Shown here piece after piece: positions 4,464 through 28,463 of a stretch of DNA of 41,089 nt. Made by a program: the position numbers and the translations under genes. Source of the DNA: Bacteroidota bacterium (GTDB taxonomy: Bacteria > Bacteroidota > Ignavibacteria > Kryptoniales > JAKASW01). The stretch spans positions 1 to 41,089 of the forward strand of contig JAMCXB010000050.1 in the NCBI GenBank assembly GCA_023480735.1. The letters are read 5' to 3'. A model generated the notes under the pieces. It was not told where the DNA came from. It searched no databases and was given only the letters and a program-made list of their open reading frames with translations. The number at the start of each line of letters is the position of its first letter. Positions within the stretch are counted from its first letter, which is position 1.

Positions 4464-5019
4464 GAAGACTTCCGTTTTGACTGTTTCAGCAATCGTGGCT
4501 TTTATGGCGATGCTGGGAACACCTCGGGCGGCCGGAACGAGTGCTACTCCGCTCCAGTCATTGTATATGATGAAGCAGCTTGTGCCCAAAGTCACCACAG
4601 TCGGAATAATTTGGAATCAATCGACAATTAACACCTCCAGCCTATTGCCGGAAATAAACCGCGCTTCGCTGTCGGTAGGCGTTAAAGTCGTTGTCGAGGA
4701 TGTGGAACAGATACAGGACGTATCGGCAAAGTTCAGGGATCTCGTACAGAACTATCATATCCAGGTTCTTTGGATATTGCAGGATGACGATCTCTACGGG
4801 AGTTCGATTGTTAAGGGATATCTCATCAAGAATTCGACTTTGAGCGGTGTTGCACTTTTTGCGCCGGGCACCGATTGGGTGTCTGCCGGGGCATGTGCGG
4901 CGTTGATGTCCGTAGGCGGAAATGCAAAGCTCTTTGTTAACCAGAAAACCCTCAACGCGCTCGGGCTGACGGTCCCTCAGCAGTACGCGCAGACGACTCA
5001 ATTCCTAGCCACGAAATAA
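4450..5019 (+). CDS. Exported half-length ABC_sub_bind-like periplasmic protein
   Basis: The 189-residue protein begins with a signal peptide (positive MLLLKK, hydrophobic to about residue 22, likely cleavage after residues 25-28 near PRAAG). The mature part resembles one lobe of the ABC_sub_bind/TrpX family (PF04392): MKQLVPKVTTVGIIWN, a Ser-rich strand-helix, SAKFRDLVQNYHIQVLWILQDD and late GLTVPQQYAQ. Family members are usually over 300 residues with two lobes, so this is about half length. No ABC permease or ATPase is near. It precedes a receptor with a periplasmic domain, so it may be a ligand adaptor for that receptor, or another periplasmic factor. The start overlaps the previous gene. 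Confidence 0.65.
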   Translation: MLLLKKTSVLTVSAIVAFMAMLGTPRAAGTSATPLQSLYMMKQLVPKVTTVGIIWNQSTINTSSLLPEINRASLSVGVKVVVEDVEQIQDVSAKFRDLVQNYHIQVLWILQDDDLYGSSIVKGYLIKNSTLSGVALFAPGTDWVSAGACAALMSVGGNAKLFVNQKTLNALGLTVPQQYAQTTQFLATK

Positions 5020-5028
5020 GAGATACTA

Positions 5029-6927: not shown

Positions 6928-6930
6928 GAA

Positions 6931-7422
6931 GTGACTGCAAACAACCAATCGAACGAGACAATCTACCAGCTGGTCAGCTTCGTCGTAGAGGACGAAGAGT
7001 TCGGAGTCGACATCCTGAAGGTACAGGAAATTATCCGGACCGTCGAAATAACTCGAGTTCCCAAATCACCGGAATTCGTCGAGGGCGTAATCAACCTTCG
7101 CGGAAAGATCGTCCCGGTAATCGATCTCAGGAGACGATTCGGAATAGAGAAGCGCGAACGCGACAATGAGACGAGAATAATTGTCGTCGAACTTACCGAC
7201 AAGGTGGTCGGCTTCCTCGTTGACAAAGTCAAGGAGGTCATCCGGGTCGAAAAAAGCATTATCGAACCTCCGCCCGAACTAACCACCAGCATCAGTTCAA
7301 ACTACATCACCGGTGTTGCAAAACTTCAGGACAGGCTGCTGATTCTGCTCGATCTGGACAAGGTCTTGTCCGGAGAAGAACAGGAACACCTATCCGAGGT
7401 TGAGGCAGGCGGAGTTGTATAG
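6931..7422 (+). CDS. cheW: Chemotaxis coupling protein CheW
   Basis: CheW links receptors to the CheA kinase in the signalling array. The 163-residue product covers the whole CheW fold: [23 protein letters not shown], the [25 protein letters not shown] core (highly conserved), [21 protein letters not shown], and [11 protein letters not shown] near the end. The start is a GTG with an AAGGAG site about 8 bases upstream. It lies between the first and second receptor genes. Length is normal. Confidence 0.97.
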
Positions 7423-7484
7423 TTACACCGCATTTACCGTTTAGATCCCTTTCCGACAAATCCGTAAACGAGGTGGGCAAACCT

Positions 7485-9650: not shown

Positions 9651-9686
9651 TGAACATTTTACAAATATATATAGCGAAGAACATCA

Positions 9687-11438
9687 ATGGAAAAACTTTC
9701 ACGTCTTAATATCACAACAAAGATTATATGGGCGGTAGTGTTATCTACGGCGCTTTCACTCGCTTCAGCTTTAGTCGGGAATTATTTCTTGATGGCGGTT
9801 TCAACATTTCTTTGTCTTACGATTGCGTCGCTCACGGCTGCGGGTATAAGAAAAGAAATCAACGCATTAAGGAAAAATGCCGAGATCATCTCGGACGGGA
9901 ATTACGACATACCGTTCGACGAATCCTCAATTACAGAGATCGGCAGGCTATCAGCGTCGATGAGCAGGATGGCCAATCACTTCAGGGACGATTCTGCCGT
10001 GTCGCACAGCATCCAGACAAGTATAGAGAGCCCTCTGTTCACTGCCGACAAAGACACAGTCTTAACCTTTCTAAACAAATCCGCATGTGAGCTGATGGAC
10101 GTGGTTCCGGAAGAAGTAGTTGGAAAGAAGACCACAAAGGAACTCTTCGGCTCGGACAAGGCCACGCGGAGCGCGCTGGCAGGACATTCTATGTCCGCCT
10201 ATGAGGTCAACATAAGAAACCGCAGGGGCGAATCAATTCCTGTGATAGCCAGCTCGGGTCCTCTCAGGAAGTCCAACGGAGAAATCGTCGGGTCGTTTCT
10301 TACCTTCATAGATTTGCGGCAGAGTATCACCAAGCAGCGAGAATACCTCGAGCAGCAGGTAAAGCCCATTGAGCAGGCCGTGCTCGCAGTCGCAGGAGGA
10401 GATCTCACCGCTTCGGTGCATATCAGCGAAGACAATCAACTTTACGAACTCGGCATGCAGGTTCAGAAAATGATTACCGGCTTAAGTTCTACACTCGGTC
10501 AGGTATTCGAAGCTTCAAATTCCGTTACAAGCGCCGCCTCACAAATCAGCAGTTCGACTGAGGAACTGGCGGCCGGTTCGCAGGAACAGTCGGCACATGG
10601 GAGCGAAGTGGCTGCGGCCGTGGAAGAGATGACGAAAACTGTGATTGAAAGCTCCGGGAATGCTGCAAATGCAGCGGAAGTTGCCAGAACCAGCGGGCGG
10701 GCGGCAAAAGAGGGAGGCGCAGTTGTCGAACAAACGGTCAAGAAGATACGCGAGATTGCAGACGTCATACAAAACTCCGCCTCGACGGTCGAGCAGCTAG
10801 GCAGCTCCACCGATCAGATCGGAGAAATCGTTTCCGTCATCGACGATATAGCAAACCAAACGAATCTCCTCGCCTTGAACGCGGCGATCGAAGCCGCTCG
10901 TGCGGGAGAGGAAGGGAGAGGTTTCGCAGTAGTAGCCGATGAAGTGAGAAACCTTGCGGAAAGAACGACTCAGGCCACAAAACAAATCGCGTCGATGATC
11001 AGAAGCCTGCAGGCTGAAGCCACTGAAGCGGTAAAATCCATGAGGCTCGGCAGCGAAGTAGTGACCGAAGGGATTAAACTCGCCGACAAGGCAGGAGAGT
11101 CGCTCAAGGCCATAGTAGAAAACACAGAATGCTCGGTAGATATGATTACACAAATCGCTGCTGCAAGCGAGGAACAATCATCAACAAGCGAAGAGATCTC
11201 GAAGAACGTCGAATCCATCTCGACAGTATCAATTCAATCAGCAGCGGGCATATCACAAATTGCAAAGGCGGCCGATGATCTCAGCGGGCTCACAGAAAGC
11301 CTTCGGAATCTCGTTCACCGCTTCAAGCTTGACCGGGAACCGGCAGAGCCAATGCTTCCCTTCGGTTCTCAAGCTGCGGTATCCGGCAGTTCTTCGGCGT
11401 TCCGGTCTGAAAGAGTCCGAGAAGACAGGAGGCTTTAA
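9687..11438 (+). CDS. Methyl-accepting receptor with membrane anchor and cytoplasmic PAS
   Basis: A 583-residue receptor with a hydrophobic hairpin at residues about 12-52 and almost no periplasmic loop, so it is not expected to bind an external ligand. A short HAMP-like segment follows, then a PAS domain at about 112-215 ([24 protein letters not shown], later [14 protein letters not shown]), so the input is probably an intracellular cue. The signalling domain has the tip [20 protein letters not shown], one residue different (Asn for the usual Asp) from the other two, and methylation-type segments [16 protein letters not shown] and [15 protein letters not shown]. No C-terminal tether. It is directly joined to fapA: the stop and next ATG read TAAATG. 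Confidence 0.93.
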
Positions 11439-12779
11439 ATGACAGACGTAATTGCGAAGGGCATAAGAGTCGAAATATCACAAGACGGTTACGAGGCATA
11501 CATAGTCGTAGACGAATCAGACCTTCAACCATCAGACATCCAGGCAGCGCTGGAGACAAGTGGAGTCGTATATGGGCTGGATAGCAACTCCGCGTTTGAG
11601 GCGCTGAACAATTTAGGCAAACAGGTTCTCGTGGCATCCGGTTCTCGACACACAGACGGGAACGACGGCTGGTTCGAACGGATCAAGAAACGCGAAGAGA
11701 CCGATGGGGAAGCGAAATTCGGAATCTCGAACGTCTATGCCGGAGAAACATTCGGGATTATCCATAAGCCCTCACCCGGCAGCGTCGGGGTGGATGTGTA
11801 CGGCAAAAAAATTCAGCCAAAATCAGGCAAGAGCATAAACATCTTCACGGGTCCGAATATCAAGCGAGTCGAATCAGAGGACCTGATTAGTCTCGAAGCA
11901 ATGGTAGACGGCAATCTCAAGATGGGAAGTGCGAGTGCAGAAATAATTACGGAATACGTCATAAGAGGAGACATCGATTATTCAGATGGTGAAATAGAGT
12001 TTGCCGGGTCGTTAAAGATCCTCGGAGACGTCAAAGGAAGCGGCAGCCTGAAGGTCAAGCACGACGTTTACGTTCAGGGCTCCGTCGAGGATGCGAGAAT
12101 AATCGCCGGCGGAACAGTGAAGATAAAGGGAAGTTTCGTTGGACGAGGCGATGGCCTGATACGGGCTGCGGGCGACGTCGAGCTCAACGTAGTCCTCAAT
12201 CAAATGATTGAATCCGGCTCCTCCATTACAGTCATTAAGGAATGCGTCAATGCGCACCTTATAGCAACTGAAGACATAGTCGGACACAATGCAACAGTAA
12301 TGGGAGGCGTGGTCACCGCAGGGAATAGAATCGAGATACGAACTCTCGGCGGTGAGTTATATTCCACAACCAAAGTGAAGCTCGGCACTCTCGAATTGCT
12401 TACGGAAGATATCTTCGCCATTAACAAGGAGATCGACCTTCAGAAAAAAGCCTCCGAACAGCTCAAAAACGAGATATACTTGCTCGTTCGGGACAGGATA
12501 GACAATAACAACTTCACCAACGAGAAGGCAAATCTCCTGAAGCTCCTGCAAACGAGGCTTCAAGAACAGAACGAGTCGATTAAGCAATTGACCGAAAGGA
12601 AGCAGGACGCTTCGGCCGTCATTAGCCGGAAAAGAAACTGCACACTCACGGTCCTCGGCAATCTCCATCAAAGCGTAGTTGTGGAAATAAACGGCGTGCG
12701 GTTCGCGCTTAAGCAGAGTTACAACAACGTCACCTTTCAAGAATCGAAGGGCGAGATCATTCGCACCAATAATTTGTGA
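11439..12779 (+). CDS. fapA: FapA/DUF342 family polymer-like protein
   Basis: The 446-residue protein belongs to the FapA (DUF342) family. In Vibrio, FapA acts in polar flagellar assembly and cell pole matters, but its biochemical role is not settled. Visible family features are the N-terminal region (EAYIVVDESDLQPSDIQAALE), the start of the beta-helical part at KPSPGSVGVDVYGKKIQPKSG, repeated glycine-rich beta strands (FAGSLKILGDVKGSG, YVQGSVEDARIIAGGTVKIKG, FVGRGDGLIRAAGDVEL, NAHLIATEDIVGHNATVMGG), and a C-terminal coiled coil (about 325-400) with a short domain after it. It is placed between a receptor and a HEAT-repeat gene, an unusual position within chemotaxis genes. Confidence 0.9.
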   Translation: MTDVIAKGIRVEISQDGYEAYIVVDESDLQPSDIQAALETSGVVYGLDSNSAFEALNNLGKQVLVASGSRHTDGNDGWFERIKKREETDGEAKFGISNVYAGETFGIIHKPSPGSVGVDVYGKKIQPKSGKSINIFTGPNIKRVESEDLISLEAMVDGNLKMGSASAEIITEYVIRGDIDYSDGEIEFAGSLKILGDVKGSGSLKVKHDVYVQGSVEDARIIAGGTVKIKGSFVGRGDGLIRAAGDVELNVVLNQMIESGSSITVIKECVNAHLIATEDIVGHNATVMGGVVTAGNRIEIRTLGGELYSTTKVKLGTLELLTEDIFAINKEIDLQKKASEQLKNEIYLLVRDRIDNNNFTNEKANLLKLLQTRLQEQNESIKQLTERKQDASAVISRKRNCTLTVLGNLHQSVVVEINGVRFALKQSYNNVTFQESKGEIIRTNNL

Positions 12780-12785
12780 TGAGAA

Positions 12786-14162
12786 ATGACAGATAGACTA
12801 ATCGAACAGCTGCATACTTCCGACCCGTCGGAGAAAAGAATAATTCTTGAAGCACTCTACGATCATTACAACAGCGACATGGTGCTGGAGGAAGCGGCTC
12901 AATTGTTGGCCGATGATGATCGCGGAGTTCGCGAGGCTGCTTCCCGCGTGCTGGTCCTTGCTTCAAGCGACAAAGCCGCATCGCTCACAGCCCCGCACAT
13001 ATCGAACACGAATATCGCAGTGCGGAATCTTGCCGGCGATTCTCTCGTCCGAATGAACGTGGCGGCCGTCAACTCGCTTCTCCCGTATGTCGACTCTGCG
13101 GACAAAGATACACGGAAATTCGCGATCGATCTCCTCGCTCAGCTGCCCGCTACCCTCGATGCGATCAACCGAATAGCGGCCCGCCTCTCCGATTCCGACA
13201 CGAATGTGGTCTGCGCATCGATAGATGCATTGGGAGCGCTTCATGCAAGAGCATACCTCGGTCGAATTCTAGATATGTTTGACAGTGCGGCTTACGCCAG
13301 ACCGAACATCGTCAATGCAGTGGCAAAACTAACCCACAACGGAGAATCGGATTTCTTCCTGAAGGCACTGACGGATGAAGATCCCGTCGTGCAGCTGGCC
13401 GCGGCCGAAGCCCTCGCCGCCCGGAAGGACCCGGCAGTTCTGGATGCATTATTACAGAAGCTGGACTCGGTATCAGAACTCGCGAGGCCGGTCGTCCTTC
13501 ACTCGATCGTTATCCTGCTCGAATCGGGAGACTACAGCGGGAAATTGTCTAACCGCTTGAAGGATTATCTCATTGAAATGCTCGACGACATCGACCCCGT
13601 TTACGTCCGTACCGCCGTTCGAGGACTGAGACATTTTATAGACGAGAAAGTCCTTTGCGCCCTCATTGACCACGCAGGAAAGGCGGACACGATCGACCGC
13701 GCAATCGTCTCAGTGATGGAAGAGCGTCCGCAAGTGGCCGTCCCGCTGCTATTGAAGCGCACCTCCGGGCAGCCGAACAAGATTCCACTGGTGAAAATAC
13801 TCATAACGATGATTGACAACCTTGTCGCCAGGGGCAGCGCGGAGGCACATTCAGATATTTTGGAGGAGGTTGCGAACCGGGTTTCGAAGGACTTCTATGA
13901 ACTGGACGTCGAGACAAAGACAGCATCAATGAACACCTACAGCAACCTTGGGACCCATCTTTCAATGCAGATTATGAAGGCGGCATTGGATGACCCGGAA
14001 CCGTCGGTTAAGAATTACGCTATTGATCTGACGACAAAACTCGGACCCCAATTTTTCCTTAAACAACTCGAAAGGCTCACTGACGACTCTGATCAGGAGG
14101 TTTGTGATGCAGCTGCGGCAATTTTGAGGACGATGAAGCAGAGCTACAAGGAGCAGGACTAA
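12786..14162 (+). CDS. HEAT-repeat protein of the chemotaxis operon
   Basis: A 458-residue all-helical repeat protein. Repeats recur about every 30-35 residues with the pattern VREAASRVLV, VRNLAGDSLVRM, TRKFAIDLLAQL, NVVCASIDALGAL, VVQLAAAEALAARKDPAVLDAL, YVRTAVRGLRHFI, SVKNYAIDLTTKLG and EVCDAAAAILRTM, typical of HEAT or HEAT-like (PBS-lyase type) repeats. No signal peptide, membrane segment or catalytic motif is visible, so it is probably a cytoplasmic scaffold. It lies 6 bases after fapA and 4 before cheR, so it is expected to be co-expressed with them. What it binds cannot be told from the sequence. Confidence 0.85.
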   Translation: MTDRLIEQLHTSDPSEKRIILEALYDHYNSDMVLEEAAQLLADDDRGVREAASRVLVLASSDKAASLTAPHISNTNIAVRNLAGDSLVRMNVAAVNSLLPYVDSADKDTRKFAIDLLAQLPATLDAINRIAARLSDSDTNVVCASIDALGALHARAYLGRILDMFDSAAYARPNIVNAVAKLTHNGESDFFLKALTDEDPVVQLAAAEALAARKDPAVLDALLQKLDSVSELARPVVLHSIVILLESGDYSGKLSNRLKDYLIEMLDDIDPVYVRTAVRGLRHFIDEKVLCALIDHAGKADTIDRAIVSVMEERPQVAVPLLLKRTSGQPNKIPLVKILITMIDNLVARGSAEAHSDILEEVANRVSKDFYELDVETKTASMNTYSNLGTHLSMQIMKAALDDPEPSVKNYAIDLTTKLGPQFFLKQLERLTDDSDQEVCDAAAAILRTMKQSYKEQD

Positions 14163-14166
14163 CGAA

Positions 14167-15039
14167 ATGGGTTACACACAAACACCTAACACTCTTTACC
14201 CGCAAAGCACAAAACTGTCCGAAGAGACCTTTCAACTTCTGAGAAAATATATCTACGAAAGAACCGGAATTTTCTTCGCAGACAACAAGAAGTATCTCCT
14301 TGAGAGCAGAGTGGGGCGGCGACTTTCAGCGTTAAGGCTGGATAGCTTTCCTGAGTACTACAACGCGCTGATGAACGGCATCGGCACCAGCGAGCTGCCG
14401 CACCTGATAAACTCCGTCACAATAAACGAGACTTTCTTCTTCAGGAACGATCCGCAGTTCATCGCTCTTGAAACGCTCATTCTTCCCGAACTCATCAAAA
14501 AGCGAATTGAACAAGGCATATACAACATAAAGATTTGGAGCGCCGCCAGTTCAACGGGCGAAGAGCCGTATACCATTGCTCTTCTTATCAGAGAAAAGAT
14601 TCAGGCAAGATATCCTTCCATAAAATTTGAAATCGTCGGGACCGACATTAACACACAGGTCCTCGACGTAGCAAGGAGGGCTGCCTACAAGGAATATTCG
14701 ATCAGGAATATTCCCAAAGTCTATATGGATAAATATTTCGAAATTCATGGAGATCAATTCCTTCTGAAAGACGAAATAAAGAGAATGGTCAGGTTGAATC
14801 AAATGAACCTGTTCGACAGGGGCATGATGCGAACCATGCGTAATTTCGATGTTGTGTTCGCCGCAAATGTCCTGATTTATTTCGACTTCAATTCGAAGCA
14901 AGTCGTAGTGTCGTCAATTTACGACAGCCTGAACAAAGGGGGATACTTCTTTGTGGGCTATTCGGAGACTCTCTATGGTTTGACACAGGCATTCAAGCCC
15001 GTGCATTTCGAAAAAGCAATTGCGTACCGAAAGGAGTGA
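14167..15039 (+). CDS. cheR: Chemotaxis receptor methyltransferase CheR
   Basis: CheR methylates glutamates of receptors with S-adenosylmethionine. The 290-residue product has the N-terminal helical domain (EETFQLLRKYIYERTGIFF, then RVGRRLSALRL), the NETFFFRND segment, the SAM-binding motif WSAASSTGEEPYTIAL, EIVGTDINTQVLDVARRA and the late FAANVLIYFDF and GGYFFVGYSETL motifs, all as in CheR. Length is normal. None of the receptors in the window ends in a pentapeptide tether, so docking would be on the receptor body. Confidence 0.97.
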   Translation: MGYTQTPNTLYPQSTKLSEETFQLLRKYIYERTGIFFADNKKYLLESRVGRRLSALRLDSFPEYYNALMNGIGTSELPHLINSVTINETFFFRNDPQFIALETLILPELIKKRIEQGIYNIKIWSAASSTGEEPYTIALLIREKIQARYPSIKFEIVGTDINTQVLDVARRAAYKEYSIRNIPKVYMDKYFEIHGDQFLLKDEIKRMVRLNQMNLFDRGMMRTMRNFDVVFAANVLIYFDFNSKQVVVSSIYDSLNKGGYFFVGYSETLYGLTQAFKPVHFEKAIAYRKE

Positions 15040-15045
15040 GGAACT

Positions 15046-15411
15046 TTGGCAAAAGCAGTAATGGTCGTTGACGACTCTGAATCCATCAGGAAATTTCTCG
15101 TGTACGCGCTTCGAGCCCAGGGCGTTTCTGTCGTTGCCGCGCGGGATGGAATGGATGCACTCGAAAAGCTGTCGCTGAACAGGGTGGATCTAATAATCAC
15201 GGACCTCAACATGCCAAATATGGACGGGTTCGAATTTCTCAAGGCATTGCGTGAAGACCGCGAATATTTTCAAGTCCCTGTAATCATATTATCATCACTT
15301 AGCGGCGAGCAGGATGTCGAGGCGGGGCTCAAGCTGGGAGCGAATTCATATCTCGTGAAACCGTTTGATCAAAAGCGGATTCAATATGAAGTAGCAAAGT
15401 ATATAAACTGA
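15046..15411 (+). CDS. CheY-like single-domain response regulator
   Basis: A 121-residue stand-alone receiver. The acidic pair is at D9-D10 (VVDDSES), the phosphorylated residue is D53 (ITDLNMPNMDG), the switch serine lies in ILSSLSG (about residues 82-84), and the conserved lysine is K105 (LVKPFD). There is no output domain. It starts with TTG; AGGAG and GAGG sites lie upstream of it, while an in-frame ATG at 15061 would cut the first strand. It directly precedes a second CheY-type gene, to which it is clearly but not closely related, so the two may have different roles, for example motor control versus phosphate sink. Confidence 0.9.
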   Translation: MAKAVMVVDDSESIRKFLVYALRAQGVSVVAARDGMDALEKLSLNRVDLIITDLNMPNMDGFEFLKALREDREYFQVPVIILSSLSGEQDVEAGLKLGANSYLVKPFDQKRIQYEVAKYIN

Positions 15412-15425
15412 GGAGATAACGATAA

Positions 15426-15797
15426 ATGAAATTTCTTGTGGTTGACGATTCACAAACAATGCGCAGGATTGTAACCAACGCCCTCAAGGGTATAGGTTAT
15501 GACGACATCATCGAAGCGGAGGACGGCAAGGATGCCTTCGCAAAGCTCTATATCGAGAAGATCGACTTCATAATAACGGACTGGAATATGCCGAACATGA
15601 ACGGGCTGGAGTTCACGAAGGCAGTGCGCGGAAGCGAGGAGCAATACAGCAACCTGCCCATTCTCATGGTTACCACCCGCGGAATGAAGGAAGATGTAAT
15701 GGAAGCGCTGCAGGCAAAGGTGAACAATTATGTCGTGAAGCCCTTTACTCCGCAGGTCCTGAAGGAAAAAATCGATCTAATACTCAAAACACTATAA
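15426..15797 (+). CDS. cheY: Chemotaxis response regulator CheY
   Basis: A 123-residue receiver very close to classic CheY: acidic pair D7-D8 in LVVDDSQTMRRIV, phosphorylated D52 in FIITDWNMPNMNGLEF (the DWNMP form is characteristic of motor-binding CheY), T83/T84 in MVTTRG, K105 in VVKPFT, and the final helix EKIDLILKTL. It is expected to bind the motor switch FliM when phosphorylated. Good ribosome site (GAGGAG) upstream. It is followed 11 bases later by the CheZ-like gene. Confidence 0.96.
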   Translation: MKFLVVDDSQTMRRIVTNALKGIGYDDIIEAEDGKDAFAKLYIEKIDFIITDWNMPNMNGLEFTKAVRGSEEQYSNLPILMVTTRGMKEDVMEALQAKVNNYVVKPFTPQVLKEKIDLILKTL

Positions 15798-15808
15798 GAG
15801 AGGGCAAT

Positions 15809-16639
15809 ATGGATTCAAAGAACCTCGGGGGAATCTTAGACAAAATAAATGAGTTGCGTGCTCTGTTCATATTTGGTCAGCGGGTAATCCCATTCTTGGA
15901 GGAGTTATTTTACTTCGTACACGACATCGTACCTGTTCTTGAAGAAATCAACGCTTCTATCTATGAAAGTGCCAGCAAGATGCCGCGAGCGTCTTCTCAG
16001 TTGAACAAGGTTACTCAGGCAACCGAACTCGCGACGACAGAAATACTCGATAACCTGGACGGCGTCATTTCCAGATTAAACACGATCGATTCGCACTTCC
16101 AGACGGCTACCGAAGATCTTGCCGCAATTGACAAGCTGGACGACAGCTTACTCGATGTCATTAAGTCTTCACTTGACGGCAGTCATCAGGAAGCGCTCCG
16201 GGAAATATCCGGTCTGCAAGAGCGGAAGCGTTCTCATCTCAAGGCAGTTAAGTTGAATGCAACGGGCCTTGAACAGAGCCTTAAGGAGATCCGCGCAAAG
16301 TCCAACGATATCATGATCTCCCTGCAGGTTCAGGACATCACGTCGCAGCAGATCGCCTCGGTAAATCACCTCATCGGCTCGGTGCAGGAAAGGCTGTCTA
16401 ATCTCATAGACAGATTCAAGATCAGCGGCGCGGAACTCATCAACGAAATAGAGAGAACCGATCACCGCACATTTGATCCCAACGCGTCTTACGACAGGTC
16501 CGATGAAAGACAGAAATCCGCAGACGTGATCGTAAGCAAGTCGGCTTCAGCACAGGGTAATTCCGACGGGCCGGGAAAAAATCCTGTCAATCCAACATCT
16601 CAGGAAGAGATCGACAAACTTTTCGGAAAGGGGGCTTAG
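15809..16639 (+). CDS. cheZ: CheZ-like CheY-P phosphatase
   Basis: CheZ speeds dephosphorylation of CheY-P. The 276-residue helical protein carries the diagnostic active-site helix LQVQDITSQQIASV, with D176 and Q180 in the spacing of the catalytic Asp and Gln of CheZ (DxxxQ), preceded by a long helix. The C-terminus QEEIDKLFGKGA, after a flexible Pro/Ser/Gly-rich linker, resembles the CheY-binding tail of CheZ. The N-terminal 90 residues are a helix-rich part with a receptor- or CheA-like look. It sits between cheY and cheA. CheZ outside Proteobacteria is less usual, and no CheC or CheX is seen in the window. Confidence 0.85.
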   Translation: MDSKNLGGILDKINELRALFIFGQRVIPFLEELFYFVHDIVPVLEEINASIYESASKMPRASSQLNKVTQATELATTEILDNLDGVISRLNTIDSHFQTATEDLAAIDKLDDSLLDVIKSSLDGSHQEALREISGLQERKRSHLKAVKLNATGLEQSLKEIRAKSNDIMISLQVQDITSQQIASVNHLIGSVQERLSNLIDRFKISGAELINEIERTDHRTFDPNASYDRSDERQKSADVIVSKSASAQGNSDGPGKNPVNPTSQEEIDKLFGKGA

Positions 16640-16644
16640 GACAC

Positions 16645-18483
16645 ATGGCAGAACATCCGATGTTTTCGGAAGAGCTGAAAGAAATCGTTGACAGCTTCAT
16701 TGTTGAGACGAACGACATATTCGAGAAACTCGATAACGAGATACTTGAGCTGGAAAAGAGACCGGAAGACAAGGATCTAATTAATTCTATTTTTCGCGCC
16801 GTACATACCGTAAAAGGAACCTCAGGGTTTCTAAGTTTCGAGCAGATGAGCGTCATCGCGCACAGGTTCGAAGATGTCTTGAATAAACTTCGACGCGAGG
16901 AATTGAGATTCCAACCGGCAATGCTTGACGTCATGTTTGAGTCGTTTGACCAAATGAAAGCCCTGCTGCGGCAGGTCGTCGATCATGATATTCATGACAT
17001 CGACTTTTCGGACACAATTAGAAGACTCGAATCACTTTCCAAGGGAATCCTGCCGGAAAAGGCGAAAGATGCGTCAAATGAACAGCCTGAGGCGGCTCCG
17101 GTATCAGAACCTGTGATCGCCAAGAGTGTCGGTCCAGTCGAAACCGAGCAGCACACAATGGACGAGGGACAGGCTTCCCCGGCGAGAGAATCGGTGCCCC
17201 AGGACGCATCACAGACCCACCCGCAGGCATCTCAATCTCAAAAGCCCGACAAGATTGCCGATACAACAATCCGAGTCGATGTCGGAAGGCTCGATCATCT
17301 GATGAACCTTGTCGGAGAACTCGTCCTCGGAAGGAATCGGCTTTCACAGATTGTATCCTCATCCAAAGACGATGAAGGGGGCGAAGATTTCTCCCACCAA
17401 TTGGCAGAAACGAGTGCGCAAATAGATTTCATTACCACCGAGCTGCAGACTGCAGTGATGAAGACGAGAATGGTCCAAATCGGGAGAGTGTTCAACAGGT
17501 TCCCCCGGCTCGTCCGCGACATAGCCAGGGAATTCGACAAGGACATCGATCTTGTCATTGAGGGTGAAGAGACGGAACTCGATAAGTCCATCATAGAGGA
17601 GATAAGCGACCCGCTGGTTCATTTGATCAGGAATGCGGCGGACCATGGAGTCGAGGAACCGGAAAGAAGAGAAAAAGCCGGTAAGGCCAGACGCGGCACA
17701 ATCCGCCTCACAGCAGGTCACGAAGGGAACCATATAATCATAGAAATCCAGGATGACGGCGCGGGCATGGATCCCGAAATATTGAAACGGAAGGCCATCG
17801 AAAAAGGAGTCATTACCGCCGAAGAAGCCCACGAGATGAAGACCGAAGATGCATACAACCTGATATTCATCCCGGGGTTCAGCACTGCACAGAAGGTAAG
17901 CAGTGTTTCGGGGAGAGGCGTCGGCATGGATGTGGTCAAGACCAACATCACAAAGCTTAACGGGATAATAGCCGTAGAATCCGAGGTCGGAAAGGGTACA
18001 AGATTCGTTCTGAAGCTACCCCTCACACTCGCAATCATCCAGGGTCTCCTTGTGGCAGTTGGAACCGAGACTTTTGCAATTCCACTCAACTCAGTTCTCG
18101 AAGTCGTGCATACATCGAAGTCGGATGTCTCAACCGTTAACGGCCGCGAGGTAATCAGGCTGCGGGAGACAGTCCTGCCGCTGGTGAACATATCCGATAT
18201 CCTCGACGTCCCCTTACAGGGTGAAGAGCTGCGCGGCTTCTACACAGTAGTAGTTGGAGTCGCAAATCACAAGTTCGGGATAGTCGTGAATCGGCTGATC
18301 GGGCAGAAAGAAATCGTGATCAAACCTCTCGGAGCTTATCTGAAGAACATAGAGGGAATAGCGGGTTCTACAATTCTCGGCGACGGCCGTGTAATAATGA
18401 TACTGGATGCCGGTGAACTCCTGAGGCTCGCACAGAAAGGAACACTTTCCAAGGCCGCGGTAGGCAGTGAGGCAGAGCTGTAG
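16645..18483 (+). CDS. cheA: Chemotaxis histidine kinase CheA
   Basis: CheA phosphorylates itself and then CheY and CheB. The 612-residue protein starts with an Hpt domain; the phosphorylated His is H54 in FRAVHTVKGTSGFL. A linker of about 75 residues rich in Glu, Ala, Pro and Gln (about 130-205) follows in place of the CheY/CheB-binding P2 domain. The dimer domain begins at DTTIRVDVGRLDHLMNLVGELVLGRN. The ATP site has HLIRNAADHGVE, DDGAGMDPE, and GRGVGMDVV. The CheW-like regulatory domain starts near GLLVAVGTETFAIPL. Shorter than the usual 650-700 residues because of the missing P2. Confidence 0.97.
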   Translation: MAEHPMFSEELKEIVDSFIVETNDIFEKLDNEILELEKRPEDKDLINSIFRAVHTVKGTSGFLSFEQMSVIAHRFEDVLNKLRREELRFQPAMLDVMFESFDQMKALLRQVVDHDIHDIDFSDTIRRLESLSKGILPEKAKDASNEQPEAAPVSEPVIAKSVGPVETEQHTMDEGQASPARESVPQDASQTHPQASQSQKPDKIADTTIRVDVGRLDHLMNLVGELVLGRNRLSQIVSSSKDDEGGEDFSHQLAETSAQIDFITTELQTAVMKTRMVQIGRVFNRFPRLVRDIAREFDKDIDLVIEGEETELDKSIIEEISDPLVHLIRNAADHGVEEPERREKAGKARRGTIRLTAGHEGNHIIIEIQDDGAGMDPEILKRKAIEKGVITAEEAHEMKTEDAYNLIFIPGFSTAQKVSSVSGRGVGMDVVKTNITKLNGIIAVESEVGKGTRFVLKLPLTLAIIQGLLVAVGTETFAIPLNSVLEVVHTSKSDVSTVNGREVIRLRETVLPLVNISDILDVPLQGEELRGFYTVVVGVANHKFGIVVNRLIGQKEIVIKPLGAYLKNIEGIAGSTILGDGRVIMILDAGELLRLAQKGTLSKAAVGSEAEL

Positions 18484-18484
18484 A

Positions 18485-19573
18485 ATGTCGATCAGAGTAT
18501 TGGTTGTAGACGACTCAGCCTTCATGCGAAAGGCGATCTCAATGATGCTAGAAAGCGATCCTGAAATCGAAGTGGTGGGGACTGCCAGGGATGGAATCGA
18601 GGCGACGGAGAAGGTAAAGGATCTGAAGCCCGACTTGATGACGATGGACGTAGAAATGCCCCGGATGGACGGGATAACCGCAGTAAAAAAGATCATGAAA
18701 GAGAACCCTCTTCCTATTCTGATGGTCAGCTCGCTTACAGTAGAGGGCGCGCGTGCAACGGTTGACGCGATGGCGGCTGGTGCAGTAGATTTCATCCCCA
18801 AACAGTTATCTTACGTCTCCCTGGACATTACGAAGATCAAAGACGATCTAATTTTCAAGATTAAGTCCATAGGGCGCAACCGCTCCAGGGCCTTTTCTAG
18901 AGTAGTGTCTTCCAAGACCTTCGCCCCGAAGAAAGCATCTCCGCTAAAATTCCTGAGTGCACAGATTGCTACTATAGGAATTTCCACAGGCGGACCTTTT
19001 TCTCTCCAGAAGGTCATTCCCTTCCTTCCAGAGGATTTCCCTCTCCCCATTGCAATAGTCCAGCACATGCCGCCGCATTTCACCAAATCGCTTGCGGAGA
19101 GGCTTGACTCAATCAGCCGAGTAGAAGTGTTTGAAGCAGAAGACGGGATGGAGTTGAAAAAAGGGACAGTATACATTGCCCCTGGCGGACTTCACTTGAA
19201 ATTCAAGCGAAGCGGAGTCAAGGTACTGATTAACATATCGAAAGATCCTTCCGATACACTTCACCGTCCGTCAGTGGATGTCATGTTCAGTTCGGCATTT
19301 GAAATATTCGGCGGAAGGGTTCTTGCCACGGTGATGACAGGGATGGGAAAGGACGGGCTGGAGGGTGCAAAGCTTATAAAGTCCGCCGGAGGTAAGATAA
19401 TCGCTCAAGACGAGGAGACATGCGTCGTTTACGGAATGCCTAAGGCGATCGTCGATGCCGAACTCGCAGATGCGGTTCTTCCGCTGGAAGAGATTGCATC
19501 CGCAATCTCCAATGCGGTTTCCACGGGCACCACTTCCTTCAGTTCCAAGCAGATCGATCCATCTAAATTATAG
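18485..19573 (+). CDS. cheB: Chemotaxis receptor methylesterase CheB
   Basis: CheB removes methyl groups from (and deamidates) receptors when phosphorylated. Receiver domain with D10 in VLVVDDSAF and phosphorylated D55 in MTMDVEMPRMDG, then the esterase domain with the catalytic Ser in GISTGGPFSL, His in VQHMPPHFT and Asp in MTGMGKDGLEG. The ATG at 18485 follows the cheA stop by one base; an open frame extends six codons upstream into cheA but that start is unlikely. Length 362 residues, normal. It is the last gene of the chemotaxis operon and faces the DksA-type gene. Confidence 0.97.
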   Translation: MSIRVLVVDDSAFMRKAISMMLESDPEIEVVGTARDGIEATEKVKDLKPDLMTMDVEMPRMDGITAVKKIMKENPLPILMVSSLTVEGARATVDAMAAGAVDFIPKQLSYVSLDITKIKDDLIFKIKSIGRNRSRAFSRVVSSKTFAPKKASPLKFLSAQIATIGISTGGPFSLQKVIPFLPEDFPLPIAIVQHMPPHFTKSLAERLDSISRVEVFEAEDGMELKKGTVYIAPGGLHLKFKRSGVKVLINISKDPSDTLHRPSVDVMFSSAFEIFGGRVLATVMTGMGKDGLEGAKLIKSAGGKIIAQDEETCVVYGMPKAIVDAELADAVLPLEEIASAISNAVSTGTTSFSSKQIDPSKL

Positions 19574-22912: not shown

Positions 22913-24486
22913 TCAGAACGGAAACTCGTTAATGCCTGCCGCCGCTTTCGGCTGTGTGACCGCAGGCTTCTTAGCCGTGCCGTGAACAGGTTTAGCGCTC
23001 ACAACGATTGCTTTCTTCGGCATTACGGGACAGGCATTTTCACAAGCGCCGCATCCGATGCAGAGTTTGTCGTCGACTTCCGGCAGAAGAAGTGTGCCCT
23101 CGTAAGGGACCGTGCTCCAGGAGAATGCAGGACCGCCTTGGTCGGGCAATGCTCCGAACATGCCGAGCAGTCCTTTTTCTTTGCCACGACGATGCAATCG
23201 TCCTTGTTGAACTTCGCGCTGCCGATCTGTGTCAGCTTCTTCGCCGCAACATCCGTCTTAAGAATGGCGCCGGTGGGACAGACTTCACCGCACACGGTGC
23301 AATCGTAATTACAGTAACCAAACTCGTATTTCATCATCGGCTGAGACATCCCCGCCAGCCCATATTCCAGAAAGGATGGTTTCAGGACATTTGTAGGGCA
23401 TGATACCACACACAGGTGGCACGCAGTGCACAGACTCGTAAAGCGCCCGATGCTGATCGATCCGGGCGGAGATATCGGCTGCCGGCTGCTCGACACTACT
23501 ATCCCGCTCTCCACAACGCCCGGCGCAATAAGCAATGCGGCTGCCGGCACCCCGACATTCTTGAAGAATTCCCTCCTACCCGAGTCAAATACAACCGGTT
23601 CAGGTCTTCCTTCTCTTCCAAGCCTGTTCGCGTATTCTATAGCATTTGTGGGACAGGCAGGGAGGCAATTGAAGCAGCCGACACAGGCGCTGAAGTCAAT
23701 GCGTCTTGCTTCGCTGTCGATACATTGCGCCTTACAGACCCTGTCGCACGCGCCGCAATCGTTGCAAAGGTCACCCCTGATAACGAGCCGGACTGCCGAG
23801 ATGCGCGACATAAGACTAAGGATTGCACCTGCGGGACAGAACGAGTTACAGAACAACCGCCCCTCGGTCATACTCAAGTAAACCACGGTGGCAAAAAACA
23901 AGAGAGCGAAAAAGAGCATGCCGACCTCATGGATGCGGACCGGGATATCGTAGAAGAGATAAATCCCAAAGTGACCCAACAAACCCGCCAGGACATTATT
24001 AACCAGGAGGATTACGGGGAGTGCAAAGCCGGCAATTAGTCGTCCATAGTTGCTGAAAGGGTCGAGCAAATCGCCGACAATCATACTCCCGCTGAGCACG
24101 GCCATGACGGCGCCGACGGCAAGAATTGGATATTGCAGCCATTGCGGCGCTTTGTAGTGCTTGAACCGCTTGCGGTGGTTTATCTTCCTGGAGACTCTGA
24201 CAAGGATGTCCTGCAGCGTTCCAAACGGACAAATTGTGGAACAATAGACCCGGCCAAACAGAAGTGTCATTGCAACGACAAATATCAGTCCGCCAACTGC
24301 TACTGCCCCGCCGGACATGATGGTCTTGAGAAGAACCGGCACGATCTGTAATGACGTCACGTACGTCACGAACTTTGAGGGAATCAGATGCCATGGATCA
24401 AGGAATAACGCGGTCGTCATGACAAGGAAGGTCAGGGAAACGACGACACGAATTTTCCTGACAGTCTTCCATCCGAATTTTGTCAA
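22913..24486 (-). pseudogene. Membrane polyferredoxin (NapH/NosR-like), broken by an 11-base insertion
   Basis: An iron-sulfur membrane protein of about 520 residues. Five membrane segments (about 15-30, 60-78, 118-140, 149-170, 188-205) carry two NapH/NosR-type CxxxCP motifs (CSTICP 82-87, CNSFCP 213-218), followed by two 4Fe-4S sites (CNDCGACDRVC, CVGCFNCLPAC). A twin-arginine-like RREFFK (304-309) and a hydrophobic stretch come next, then NapG-like clusters CTACHLC, CNYDCTVCGEVC, CSACSEHC. The frame is lost after residue 454 but continues in another frame with VPYEGTLLLPEVDDKLCIGC to a stop at 22913. Removing the 11 bases 23114-23124 restores AVLHTVPYEG. TTG start, overlapping the DUF362 gene by 4 bases. 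It may instead be a sequencing or assembly error. Confidence 0.8.
23108..23129 (-). repeat. 22-base inverted repeat, right copy (inside the polyferredoxin)
   Basis: On the minus strand this is identical to 22729-22750. The core 11 bases (23114-23124) carry the reversed copy of the DUF72 Shine-Dalgarno and cause the frameshift. Sequence on both sides (ACGGTC and TGCAT) reads as normal polyferredoxin coding sequence. Confidence 0.85.
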
Positions 24487-25394
24487 ATCGTTATCCGCTT
24501 TATCTTAAGGTTCTCCAGGTCTACGCGTCCGATCTTCATTTCCGCTGCGATACGGATATGGCGCACATCGTCGGGCTGCATCCCGTAGAGTTTCGCACCC
24601 GCCGCGTCCAGTGTCACTATGTCTGCGGAAATCAGCTGGGCCTTCATAGTCACCACATCATTAACCGACACTCCGCGCGGCCCGTTTTGTTTCATGACAT
24701 AGTACGCGTCGAGAACATTTAGAGCTGGTTTCCTGTACGTCGCAAAGTCGGCGATGCATTGGTGAAGATCTGTCCGGTGCCAGTACTCTCTGTCCCATAC
24801 GTTTCCCATCATGTTCTTCAACCCGGCAGTCAGTTTCGAGCCGCTGTGACATTTGAGGATGGGCACGTTGATGAACACATCCGAATCAAGAATCACCTCG
24901 TGTTCCCGGGTTGAAGTGAGCGCCTTCCCTTTATTGATCGATACCTTGTCGTAATAGCTTGGGCTTCCTCCGGGGACCATCTTGCCGCCCGTGTCCTTGA
25001 CGGCCTTCTCGATGCCGCTGTGAGCGTAGCAGCGCTGCCATTCATCGCACGGGTGGTCGACAACACTTACTTCCCTTGCTCCCGCCTCAAAGCAATGCTG
25101 AATGATTCTCGAAACCAGCTTCGGATTCGTATTGCCGCCGCGCTCGGGAGAGACATCCCAGCCGATGTTCGGTTTGACAACGACCTTGTCCCCCTTCTTG
25201 ACAAACGTCCTCATTCCGCCAAGAGCCTTGATTCCCCAGTCAAACATCGTATCCGGTTCCCCGCCTTTCACTGCGACCAGGTCGTAAGGCAACGGCGCTC
25301 CTCCCAGCACTTCAAACATTCTTCCCGTCTTCATGAATGCACCGAATGCGATTGAGGCCCCCAGGCTCTGCTTCACAAAAGTTCGTCGATCCAT
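24483..25394 (-). CDS. DUF362 family protein with Tat-type signal
   Basis: A 303-residue DUF362 protein. The N-terminus MDRRTFVKQSLGASIAFGAF has a twin-arginine motif (R3-R4-T-F-V-K) and a hydrophobic stretch, so export by the Tat path is likely. Family marks include GDKVVVKPNIGW, the GGNTNP segment, DVFINVPILKCHSGSKLTAGLKNMMG, and the end DAAGAKLYGM. No 4Fe-4S motif of its own is visible. The gene lies directly before the membrane polyferredoxin and overlaps it, a pairing I know from other environmental genomes; the reaction is unknown. A GGGAG site precedes the ATG. Confidence 0.85.
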   Translation of the reverse strand: MDRRTFVKQSLGASIAFGAFMKTGRMFEVLGGAPLPYDLVAVKGGEPDTMFDWGIKALGGMRTFVKKGDKVVVKPNIGWDVSPERGGNTNPKLVSRIIQHCFEAGAREVSVVDHPCDEWQRCYAHSGIEKAVKDTGGKMVPGGSPSYYDKVSINKGKALTSTREHEVILDSDVFINVPILKCHSGSKLTAGLKNMMGNVWDREYWHRTDLHQCIADFATYRKPALNVLDAYYVMKQNGPRGVSVNDVVTMKAQLISADIVTLDAAGAKLYGMQPDDVRHIRIAAEMKIGRVDLENLKIKRITI

Positions 25395-25664: not shown

Positions 25665-25964
25665 AGCCGATACATTCAAGCACGAAGAATTGTTGACATT
25701 TATTTCCGTACCGAGTAAACTTAAGCGTTCTCCATGGTGGGTTGCCGGCTCGTACACATCTCACTTCCCACAATTCGCACATCCAGAAATATCCAGTCTC
25801 AAGAGAGACCACGCTGTTTGCAAGCAAGTCACTTTGATCGCGGCAAGGTGTCGACCTTAATCCGACGGGCAAAAGACTCGCGATTCTAACATTTCGTCAG
25901 CCTGATTAACCTTTGCCGTCAGCAATATCCGGAAAAAGCGAAAACAAACTGAAAGGAGGAATAA

Positions 25965-26906
25965 ATGAAACGGAGCCTTAGTTTCATAGTATCGGCCACA
26001 TACTCAACGTTGATCTTTCTGCTTGCATTCTTGTCGGAATCCAATGCACAGAAGATTGAGCCTCCATGGTCGACTTTTCCGCAAAGCGGAAAGGAGTTCA
26101 CCATCCCAGGCATCGACAACGTCCCTGATCTGCACGGCGATGTTAACGATCCCGATCTGGTTGTCTTTTTTGCCGGCAACCAGTTCATGGTCGTCCCTGA
26201 CCTGATCAAGGCATTCAAGACAGAGTACCCCCAATACAAGCGCATTTTTGTTGAGACGCTGCCACCTGGAATACTTCTGGATCAGATTGAACAGGGTGCA
26301 ATAGTCATCGGAAACATGAGAATCTCCCTGCTGCCGGATATCTTCACGGCGGGCAAAGTGCGCCTTGAAGGAGTCCAGAAGGACAAAAACTGGTTCGGCG
26401 AAACTGTGGATTATGCTCGAAACCGGTTGGCAATCATGGTGTATAAGGGTAATCCAGACCAGATAACTTCCTTGAGAGACCTTGGGAAACCGGGTATAAG
26501 AGTGAGCATGCCTAACCCGCAATGGGAAGGCGTTGCTCGAACTATCATGGCCACCTTCAAGAAGGCAGGAGGTGATAAACTAGTCACTGAGATCATGGAC
26601 AACAAAGTGAAAGCGGGAACGACATTCCTAACGCACATACACCACAGACAGACTCCGATTCGTATTATGGAGAAGAAATCGGACGCAGGCCCGGTCTGGT
26701 ATACCGAGGCGAAATTTCAGATGATGATTGGCAACCCGATCGACCTCGTGGAAATTCCCGCAGAGGTAAATACGGAGGTCATCTACACAGCAGCCGCCCT
26801 GAAGAATGCGCCGCACTCCCAGGCCGCAAAGGACTTCATGAAATTTCTAAAGAGTAAGACGAGCTCCGGCATTTATCAGAAGTACGGCTTCATGCCTGTA
26901 GAATGA
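25965..26906 (+). CDS. Exported substrate-binding protein (ModA-like fold)
   Basis: A 313-residue protein with a Sec signal peptide (MKRSLSF..., cleavage near SNA-Q at about 28). The mature part looks like a periplasmic binding protein of the molybdate/extracellular type: DLVVFFAGNQFMVVPDLIKAF, VETLPPGILLDQIEQGAI, RNRLAIMVYKGNP, SLRDLGKPGIRVSMPNP and PHSQAAKDFMKFLKS near the end. A His cluster (H224, H226, H227, in THIHHRQTP) is unusual for ModA and may bind a metal or sulfur ligand. There is no permease or ATPase gene next to it, so it may act as a sensor or carrier within the periplasm. GGAGG site before the ATG. Confidence 0.75.
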   Translation: MKRSLSFIVSATYSTLIFLLAFLSESNAQKIEPPWSTFPQSGKEFTIPGIDNVPDLHGDVNDPDLVVFFAGNQFMVVPDLIKAFKTEYPQYKRIFVETLPPGILLDQIEQGAIVIGNMRISLLPDIFTAGKVRLEGVQKDKNWFGETVDYARNRLAIMVYKGNPDQITSLRDLGKPGIRVSMPNPQWEGVARTIMATFKKAGGDKLVTEIMDNKVKAGTTFLTHIHHRQTPIRIMEKKSDAGPVWYTEAKFQMMIGNPIDLVEIPAEVNTEVIYTAAALKNAPHSQAAKDFMKFLKSKTSSGIYQKYGFMPVE

Positions 26907-26957
26907 ACTCTTGGTATGTGATAGAAATTCTAACTGCATCACAGGAGGAGAAACAAC

Positions 26958-27785
26958 ATGAGACAGAAAGCGCTCGTTTTAATAGCGGCACTGACTATGT
27001 TGGTTGCAGCTTTTGCCATGTCCGGATCGAGAGATCATGTTTTCGCCGAAGGGCCGAGTGTACCCATTCAGAAGACGGAGGCCGGCATGTCATCGACAAA
27101 TGTAAAATACAATCCGCCATTGCCGAAAGATGCGCCAATAAGCATTAGAGACGCGGTAATGCTCGGTTATGATATTATGAACCACACCAGAACCTATGCC
27201 GGCAAATACGTCGGGAACACACTTAATTGTTCCAACTGCCATTTCAAAGAAGGTTCTACCGAAGGCGGCAAAAATGGCGGACTCTCTTTGGTTGGAGTGA
27301 CAACAAAGTATCCTGAATACCGATCCATAGCCGACGGTGTTGTCGACATTGTTTCCCGAACAAACAGTTGTTTCGAAAGAAGCATGGACGGAAAACCGTT
27401 GCCCCCGAACAGCAGGGAGATGGTTGGTTTAATCACCTATTTCCAATGGATATCAAAAGGACTCCCCATATACGAAAAGATTCCCTGGTTGGGTCTAAAG
27501 CATATCAAGAGCAACCATAAGCCAAATCAGGTGGAAGGTAAAAAGATATTCTCCTCTGCTTGTGCGTCGTGCCACGGCGCCGACGGCCTCGGAACAAAGA
27601 TAGCGCCGCCGCTTTGGGGAAAAGAATCTTTCAATGACGGTGCAGGGATGGCAGGTTTGGCGAATCTCGTAGCTTTTGCCCATGATAATATGCCTTATCT
27701 CGTTTCCAATCTCACGGGAAACGAAGCCCTGGATGTAGCGGCATTCGTCACCAGTCAACCGAGACCACATTTTACAGCAAAATGA
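26958..27785 (+). CDS. TsdA-like dihaem cytochrome c (thiosulfate dehydrogenase family)
   Basis: A 275-residue exported cytochrome. The signal peptide ends at about residue 30. Two haem-binding sites are seen: CSNCH at 91-95 and CASCH at 202-206. C138 in NSCFERSMDGKPLPPNSREM matches the cysteine axial ligand region of TsdA, and M245 in DNMPY is a plausible ligand of the second haem. TsdA joins two thiosulfates into tetrathionate (or acts in reverse) and passes electrons to cytochromes. The family match is from motif recognition. The GGAGG site lies 8 bases before the ATG. It sits between a binding protein and a DsrE-like gene. Confidence 0.8.
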   Translation: MRQKALVLIAALTMLVAAFAMSGSRDHVFAEGPSVPIQKTEAGMSSTNVKYNPPLPKDAPISIRDAVMLGYDIMNHTRTYAGKYVGNTLNCSNCHFKEGSTEGGKNGGLSLVGVTTKYPEYRSIADGVVDIVSRTNSCFERSMDGKPLPPNSREMVGLITYFQWISKGLPIYEKIPWLGLKHIKSNHKPNQVEGKKIFSSACASCHGADGLGTKIAPPLWGKESFNDGAGMAGLANLVAFAHDNMPYLVSNLTGNEALDVAAFVTSQPRPHFTAK

Positions 27786-27914
27786 ATTTCGGTTGAGAAG
27801 GACCGGTTTCCCGAACAGTCGTTATGAATTGATAATCTTCGGGCAGACTTGATGATCGGCTGATCAGTAAGAGTAAATTCATTTCACAACTTGAGAATTA
27901 AGAGGAGGATCGTT

Positions 27915-28463
27915 ATGAAAAGCGTCACAGCTTTCTTTTTTGCGATTGTACTAATCGCAAGCTGGTCGAATCTTGCACATGCGCAGGCCAAATGGGAATA
28001 TCCCGTCATAAAAGGATACGGCCCCGTACACCCGCTGCCGGATGCTGCCATCCAGCCGGATAAGTCTCTGAACTACAAGATACTCTTCGATATCACGCAA
28101 GCAGCCAAGGAGAAAGGTAAAGTCAATCCTGCGCTGGACCACCTGGCACGGCTGATCAACGTTTTTGCGTCAGCTGGCATGATGCCGGACAAGATGAAAC
28201 TCGTGGCGATCATTCACGGACCAGCGACGCCCGTCGTGTTGAACAACGAAGAGTTCAAATCGAAATTCGGCATCGATAACCCCGATATCAAACTGATCAA
28301 TGACTTGAAGAAGAGCGGCGTGGTGTTTTATGTGTGTGGTCAGGCTCTGGCTGACAATAGTTACGAGCATAAATGGGTGAACAAGGGGATAACTATAGCG
28401 TTGTCTGCGCTGACGGTCGTACCGACTTATCAACTGCGAGGCTACGCTCTGATGGCGTGGTAA
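27915..28463 (+). CDS. Exported DsrE/DsrF-fold protein
   Basis: A 182-residue protein with a signal peptide (cleavage near AHA-Q, about residue 24). The mature part has the DsrE/F fold: NYKILFDITQAAKEKGKV, ALDHLARLINVFASAGM, KMKLVAIIHGPATPVVLN and a single conserved cysteine C141 in VVFYVCGQAL, the site where DsrE-type proteins carry persulfide. Most DsrE proteins are cytoplasmic, so an exported form is worth noting. The frame is open upstream from TTG at 27891, but the ATG at 27915 follows GAGGAGG, so it is chosen. It is the last gene of the module and faces the NtrC-type gene. Confidence 0.8.
   Translation: MKSVTAFFFAIVLIASWSNLAHAQAKWEYPVIKGYGPVHPLPDAAIQPDKSLNYKILFDITQAAKEKGKVNPALDHLARLINVFASAGMMPDKMKLVAIIHGPATPVVLNNEEFKSKFGIDNPDIKLINDLKKSGVVFYVCGQALADNSYEHKWVNKGITIALSALTVVPTYQLRGYALMAW

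Follow-up and report, generated by a model that had tools for sequence, protein, structure and literature searches.

The DNA analysed here (the window) is a stretch of 41,089 nucleotides, contig JAMCXB010000050.1 of a Bacteroidota bacterium (Kryptoniales; JAKASW01; assembly GCA_023480735.1), and it contains three adjoining genes for an exported solute-binding protein (SBP), a TsdA-type diheme cytochrome c and an exported DsrE-fold protein. This trio is real and conserved, with a thiosulfate dehydrogenase and an orphan SBP as its core, and DsrE standing where other clusters have a Tat-exported thiosulfate dehydrogenase (TSD). We read it as a periplasmic thiosulfate/tetrathionate module, with a probability of roughly 0.55, in which the three exported proteins probably capture and convert thiosulfate or tetrathionate outside the cell membrane. 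The locus is made up of the following features, given with the evidence for each.

25953..25959, plus strand: ribosome-binding site (AAGGAGG) of the SBP gene (sequence).
25965..26906, plus strand: exported SBP of the SBP_bac_11 family, 'IHHR' subfamily, 313 amino acids (Pfam, alignment).
26943..26949, plus strand: ribosome-binding site (AGGAGGA) of the cytochrome gene (sequence).
26958..27785, plus strand: TsdA-type diheme cytochrome c, 275 amino acids (Pfam, TsdA structures 4wqc/4v2k, residue alignment).
27901..27909, plus strand: ribosome-binding site (AGAGGAGGA) of the DsrE gene (sequence).
27915..28463, plus strand: exported DsrE-fold protein, 182 amino acids, with a single Cys141 in V-C-G-Q (Pfam, alignment, rough model).

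The three genes are co-directional, with gaps of 51 bases between SBP and TsdA and 129 bases between TsdA and DsrE. AGGAGG-type sites precede the ATGs of SBP, TsdA and DsrE, ending 5, 8 and 5 bases ahead of them, respectively; for DsrE, the open reading frame (ORF) lister gave a TTG start at 27891, and the ribosome site matches the ATG at 27915. The hydrophobic N-termini of all three proteins look, by inspection, like signal peptides. A Pfam scan assigned SBP_bac_11 (E 1.5e-41), SoxA-TsdA_cyt-c (E 4.7e-12) together with a second cytochrome c domain, and DsrE (E 8.3e-8) to the three proteins in turn, each above its curated cut-off; the DsrE assignment (PF02635) scored 32.9 bits against a gathering threshold of 22.7. 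A preliminary description of this DNA had listed three exported, co-directional ORFs with strong ribosome sites and had placed one cysteine each of the TsdA-like and DsrE proteins at positions 138 and 141, all of which our analysis bears out. The gene-neighbourhood and residue checks that it had proposed were run as well, and showed that the trio is kept together and that both cysteines are retained in relatives, as detailed below.

SBP, TsdA and DsrE occur in the same order in 4 of the 13 genomes of the window's genus, with TsdA in the middle; the three sister loci have flanks that, as read, are unlike those of the window. A sample of 395 genomes from the phylum yielded a strong SBP match (E <1e-100) in eight, the window's included; all eight carry TsdA, and seven have it at most 1 kb from SBP. 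Further SBP relatives lie on plasmids of Hymenobacter, Spirosoma, Paraburkholderia, Burkholderia, Methylobacterium, Bradyrhizobium, Bosea and acetic acid bacteria. For a tally of neighbours, 30 SBP copies (12 from genomes of the phylum and 18 from 16 plasmids) were grouped into 20 clusters at 90% identity; these loci are mutually related, and the counts are not independent events. Plasmid records with an SBP match also numbered 30, comprising 22 strong (at least 41% identity) and 8 weak ones. The tally took 16 of the strong records. Six near-duplicates were omitted, as were another SBP site in Bradyrhizobium sp. SK17 and one piece of a Spirosoma SBP that is split in two; two of the weak records were used separately, one inspected as a control region and one as a ModA example. 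Because two of the 16 tallied plasmid records are unannotated, genes there were located by profile only.

A thiosulfate dehydrogenase (TsdA and/or TSD) lies at most 5 kb from SBP in 19 of the 20 clusters, and TsdA itself in 17; the lone cluster without an enzyme near SBP, genome G397, has its TsdA on another contig. DsrE is found within 1.5 kb of SBP in 12 clusters and TSD within 200 bases in 8, with no cluster having both or neither at these distances; counted at 5 kb, the two occur together near SBP in a single cluster. TsdA within 5 kb is combined with DsrE within 1.5 kb in 11 of the 20. The plasmid islands also carry SoxB-like and SQR-like genes (annotated or scored, both below the equivalog cut-offs), as well as DoxD, YeeE, sulfite/sulfate exporters and terminal oxidases. 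The SBP of the Spirosoma linguale plasmid (L110, 8001-8917) is broken into two overlapping ORFs, with no gene listed.

The cytochrome matched the solved TsdA structures 4wqc (E 2.6e-37) and 4v2k (E 1.8e-36) over ~210 aligned residues. We compared it with 45 TsdA rows, taken as matches at E ≤1e-30 in the collected loci after dropping copies identical over the last 80 residues, using the Allochromatium vinosum TsdA numbering and residue roles of PMC4423706. CxxCH heme sites at 91-95 and 202-206 (C91-C94-H95 and C202-C205-H206) are present in all 45 rows. Cys138 aligns with A. vinosum Cys123, a ligand of heme 1, and is predicted to have the same role; it is invariant (45/45), as are Arg134, aligned with Arg119, and the heme 2 ligand Met245 with its neighbour Asn244. 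Ser142, the equivalent of Ser127, is kept in 39 of the 45. Membership of SoxA was considered and rejected, the cytochrome scoring 47.6 bits against an NCBIfam SoxA equivalog cut-off of 110. Among other members of the genus, three loci (L126, L127 and L128) encode exported-looking single-heme SoxA/TsdA-domain proteins of ~150 amino acids that lack a second cytochrome domain, and genome G012 has a second full-length TsdA (L125, 1186-2001) on a contig different from that of its SBP and DsrE.

The same residues bear on tetrathionate respiration, in which these proteins would act as a tetrathionate reductase with electrons fed into TsdA. The TsdA of Campylobacter jejuni is a tetrathionate reductase with Asn-Met at heme 2 (PMC5146829), and Asn244-Met245 of the window reproduces this pair; however, its presence in 45 of 45 rows means that it tells nothing about reaction direction, and copies whose neighbours are terminal oxidases, SoxB-like or YeeE genes, a setting that suggests oxidation, have it too. 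The heme 2 Asn is likewise not decisive, because the N254K exchange did not make the C. jejuni enzyme better suited to oxidation (PMC5146829). We consider a respiratory role unlikely.

In the binding protein, His226, His227 and His284 are present in all 30 homologue rows (a set with near-duplicates and one fragment), and Ile225 and Arg228 in at least 95% of them, whereas His224 varies. Of the HIHH cluster to which the preliminary description had drawn attention, two histidines are thus kept, while the real signature is I-H-H-R plus His284. In a profile alignment, the IHHR stretch falls on the ModA segment preceding the D-A-G-x-V motif, which we take to line the oxyanion cleft and contact the oxyanion. 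The closest SBP relatives of solved structure are mostly molybdate/sulfate binders and PEB3. SBP scores far below the NCBIfam cut-offs for modA (34.8 vs 62.5), CysP (21.7 vs 308) and sulfate-binding protein (25.6 vs 155.5).

No permease or ATPase adjoins the window SBP, which is the single SBP_bac_11 protein above cut-off in its genome (90% complete). Six ABC permease-family matches in that genome are most like PstC/PstA and two sugar-type pairs (genome ATPases were not searched), so that the idea of a binding protein without transporter, put forward in the preliminary description, stands within the 90%-complete assembly. A second SBP, AcfC/PEB3-like and with a YGPGGP start (L104, 7872-8645, and similar), lies at most 5 kb from the IHHR SBP in 6 of the 20 clusters, and no permease is annotated next to it in the plasmid tables inspected. 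Peptide-pattern scans of viral contigs found no relative of SBP or DsrE, and a phage collection gave one weak SBP match (24.6% identity).

Three histidines kept in 30 of 30 rows, together with oxidases near several plasmid copies, might also suggest a metal (Cu or Zn) or heme-related helper whose histidines bind metal for cytochromes or oxidases. This is very unlikely in our judgement, since no oxidase was recognised beside the genus copies in the ORF lists read, and since both the placement of IHHR on the presumed oxyanion-contacting segment of ModA and the mostly molybdate- or sulfate-binding relatives argue for an oxyanion ligand.

Cys141 is the sole cysteine of the window DsrE and is kept in every homologue row, 42 long and 9 short (51 in total, including a few near-duplicates). 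A rough AlphaFold model (two sequences, predicted local distance difference test score (pLDDT) 59) gave four best PDB matches that are DsrE-like, among them 3MC3, and the DsrE sequence profile matched 3MC3, a Sulfolobus DsrE3A, weakly (E 0.00018). The Cys-X7-Cys pair of DsrE3A is not present in the window protein, where Cys141 stands alone, and no NCBIfam model, the TSD model NF052225 included, matched it at E ≤0.1 or ≤5. Exported-type DsrE relatives are common in the phylum, with a match in 42 of the 395 sampled genomes. A contig scan with DsrE returned one locus (L005), on a 3.2-kb contig without TsdA or SBP. On a Sphingobium plasmid (L118), a DsrE relative neighbours genes for multicopper oxidase, YeeE, TauE, MBL-fold and rhodanese proteins, with a mercury-resistance block adjoining.

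Elsewhere, cysteines of the DsrE family are carriers of sulfane sulfur, which speaks for a persulfide/polysulfide shuttle: DsrE would carry sulfane sulfur as Cys-S-SH from sulfide or polysulfide oxidation, TsdA would drain the electrons and SBP would deliver polysulfide. SQR-like, MBL-fold or Blh (sulfur transferase/dioxygenase) genes in some islands fit such a scheme. However, the constant neighbours of SBP are thiosulfate dehydrogenases, and no SQR-like gene was recognised near the trio in the partly scanned ORF lists of the window and its three sisters. Moreover, archaeal DsrE3A reacts with tetrathionate to give Cys-S-thiosulfonate, and was inert towards polysulfide, NaSH, glutathione persulfide and sulfite (PMC4175335). 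The shuttle is thus distinctly unlikely.

Next, we compared DsrE with TSD. In many proteobacterial islands, the gene preceding SBP is annotated as 'transcriptional initiation protein Tat' or as hypothetical, and three SBP-linked TSDs scanned against NCBIfam NF052225 (thiosulfate dehydrogenase, cut-off 300) scored 394.8, 342.3 and 415.9 bits. One genus member (G004) has TSD immediately 5' of SBP, its TSD match being spread over two contigs, with a SoxA/TsdA domain ~2 kb before the other TSD part; hence, the window's genus has members with DsrE and members with TSD next to SBP. Both kinds of locus, DsrE-SBP and TSD-SBP, are borne by one Paraburkholderia plasmid and by one Acetobacter plasmid. 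The window's genome gave no TSD match, and DsrE occupies the place of TSD.

The C-terminal part of TSD, in an 11-row profile, matched long DsrE over 72 columns (E 1.1e-5, score 41.9) and short DsrE over 55 columns (E 3.2e-5, score 38.3), with the conserved cysteines of TSD and DsrE in register in the profile alignments. As controls, 60 column shuffles each reached at most 25.0 (long) and 19.4 (short), reversed profiles 15 to 17, and three unrelated profiles against TSD 13 to 19. The TSD model run against 20 long DsrE rows matched one of them, at E 0.16. From these profile comparisons, the C-terminal half of TSD is likely to be DsrE-like and remotely related to DsrE, which falls short of proof. 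Going further, the Tat-exported TSD of iron-oxidising acidithiobacilli could be a DsrE-fold cysteine enzyme with the exported DsrE of the trio as its counterpart, a tentative proposal that we hold to be rather doubtful.

Several observations weigh against the thiosulfate/tetrathionate reading or against the likeness of TSD to DsrE. The 11-row TSD alignment was obtained by removing three near-duplicates and adding five rows by TSD similarity, including the very divergent L147; a first alignment of 9 rows had given weak matches (E 0.001 for long and 0.0012 for short DsrE), and the rise in score between the two is in part due to L147. Leaving out this row, TSD matched long DsrE at E 1.6e-4 (score 34.8, reversed 13.2) and short DsrE at E 9.1e-4 (score 29.5, reversed 11.1), and a Pfam scan of TSD gave no DsrE domain. 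Where A. vinosum TsdA has Arg109 in contact with thiosulfate (PMC4423706), the window enzyme has Ile124; Arg or Lys is found there in 43 of the 45 rows, and Arg in all three genus sisters. Outside the window's genus, neither TsdA nor SBP was found near DsrE in any of the 29 loci examined (from 46 match rows, with flanks of at most 1.5 kb), so that DsrE proteins in general are not peculiar to the set. Thiosulfate itself is unreactive with DsrE3A (PMC4175335). A single-sequence model of SBP was uninformative (pLDDT 32), a YeeE search of the window's genome gave no match, and among the neighbours of the trio, which were partly scanned, we recognised neither an oxidase nor another sulfur gene. In Acidithiobacillus ferrooxidans, discussed below, the second sbp copy, AFE_0049, was unchanged with sulfur (PMC2754497).

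The thiosulfate/tetrathionate reading is nevertheless the best supported. In this mechanism, TsdA would join two thiosulfates into one tetrathionate, or split it again, by way of a Cys138-S-thiosulfonate at heme 1, as its residues suggest, and electrons would pass through heme 2, following the family mechanism shown in other species. DsrE, which stands in the position of the Tat-exported TSD of sister clusters, may use Cys141 to take up or process the thiosulfonate from tetrathionate in the manner of archaeal DsrE3A. The binding protein would use a ModA-like cleft and the conserved histidines to hold the shared oxyanion (thiosulfate or tetrathionate), and would supply it to the enzymes or buffer it, instead of serving an ABC importer; we infer the SBP ligand, the reaction direction and this handover. 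The interpretation offered in the preliminary description, a binding protein handing over a sulfur substrate within a periplasmic thiosulfate or polysulfide shuttle, is therefore partly supported: the surroundings favour thiosulfate/tetrathionate chemistry, whereas its polysulfide side is less supported, and the handing over of the substrate is a suggestion that we share. If, beyond this, TSD should prove to be a DsrE-fold cysteine enzyme with the DsrE of the trio as its counterpart, the rather doubtful proposal made above, DsrE (or TSD) and the His-rich SBP would amount to a heme-free enzyme for thiosulfate/tetrathionate, served by its own substrate-delivery protein next to the heme enzyme TsdA, and plasmid-borne in at least two phyla. 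As a marker, the combination of TsdA or TSD with DsrE and an IHHR-type SBP could point to thiosulfate metabolism in bacteria rarely counted as sulfur oxidisers.

Upstream, the trio is flanked by divergent DUF362 and polyferredoxin genes; the NapH-like polyferredoxin ORF and the DUF362 ORF (window 23023-25394) share a four-base overlap. Downstream, a sigma-54 regulator and kinase pair is convergent, 29 bases beyond. A chemotaxis cluster occupies window positions 4450-19573; the six proteins scanned in it include an ABC_sub_bind protein, three methyl-accepting proteins, CheA and CheB. Taken with two-component genes in some plasmid islands, the regulator/kinase pair and the chemotaxis cluster could suggest that SBP is a ligand-binder for two-component or chemotaxis signalling and not a substrate supplier. 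The ORF list of the three sister loci, read unscanned, revealed no two-component genes next to the trio, and the region 5' of the trio lacks a sigma-54-type match; we give this role only a slim chance. A sigma-54 promoter tying the trio to the adjoining regulator was accordingly rejected (the window has 3 matches, where shuffling gives 5.8 on average). Promoter and terminator scans of the window were close to chance level (4 vs 3.5 and 5 vs 3.6, respectively).

The preliminary description knew of no named pathway with this set; to this must be added a related cluster already described, tsd-sbp-doxDA of A. ferrooxidans (PMC2621215, PMC6335251), the closest known arrangement to the trio. We found no account of the trio or of a TSD-DsrE relation in the literature searched, which covered few subscription papers, and one may be in print; PMC11582611 names TsdA, DsrE and a 'substrate-binding protein', but for other proteins. 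A. ferrooxidans has two adjacent tsd-sbp-doxDA copies (AFE_0042-0044 and AFE_0050-0048; PMC6335251). AFE_0042 is a thiosulfate dehydrogenase, reported to reduce neither ubiquinone nor horse cytochrome c (Kikumoto 2013, as related in PMC6335251). The sbp product is named a sulfate/molybdate binding protein (PMC6335251) or a periplasmic solute-binding protein (PMC2754497); AFE_0043 is at a higher level in sulfur-grown than in Fe(II)-grown cells (PMC2754497) and is raised in pyrite biofilm cells (PMC6450195). Gluconobacter oxydans has an organisation similar to this cluster (PMC2621215), and the locus on its plasmid pGOX1 fits that report; the SBP there, next to TSD and DoxD, is homologous to that of the window.

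Like the window, the A. ferrooxidans cluster has a periplasmic SBP adjoining a thiosulfate dehydrogenase; in the window, heme TsdA and DsrE replace the Tat-exported TSD, and DoxDA is not alongside. The two SBPs are likened only by way of the Gluconobacter homologue, which has the same gene order. The window TsdA resembles those of A. vinosum and C. jejuni in its two c-type heme sites, Cys ligand, Arg119 and Ser127 equivalents and heme 2 Met, and differs in Ile124 for Arg109 and in its SBP and DsrE partners, which go unmentioned in the consulted passages of the TsdA papers. By profile and model, the window DsrE appears to share the DsrE fold and an active-site cysteine with DsrE3A of Metallosphaera cuprina and with 3MC3 of Sulfolobus; unlike DsrE3A, it is exported, has one cysteine in place of Cys-X7-Cys and has no TusA or Hdr genes recognised alongside. 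Finally, the window SBP shares its family and the order of conserved segments with the ModA, sulfate-binding and PEB3-AcfC SBPs, and is set apart from them by scores below the ModA, CysP and sulfate cut-offs, by the absence of a permease partner and by its IHHR and His284 signature.

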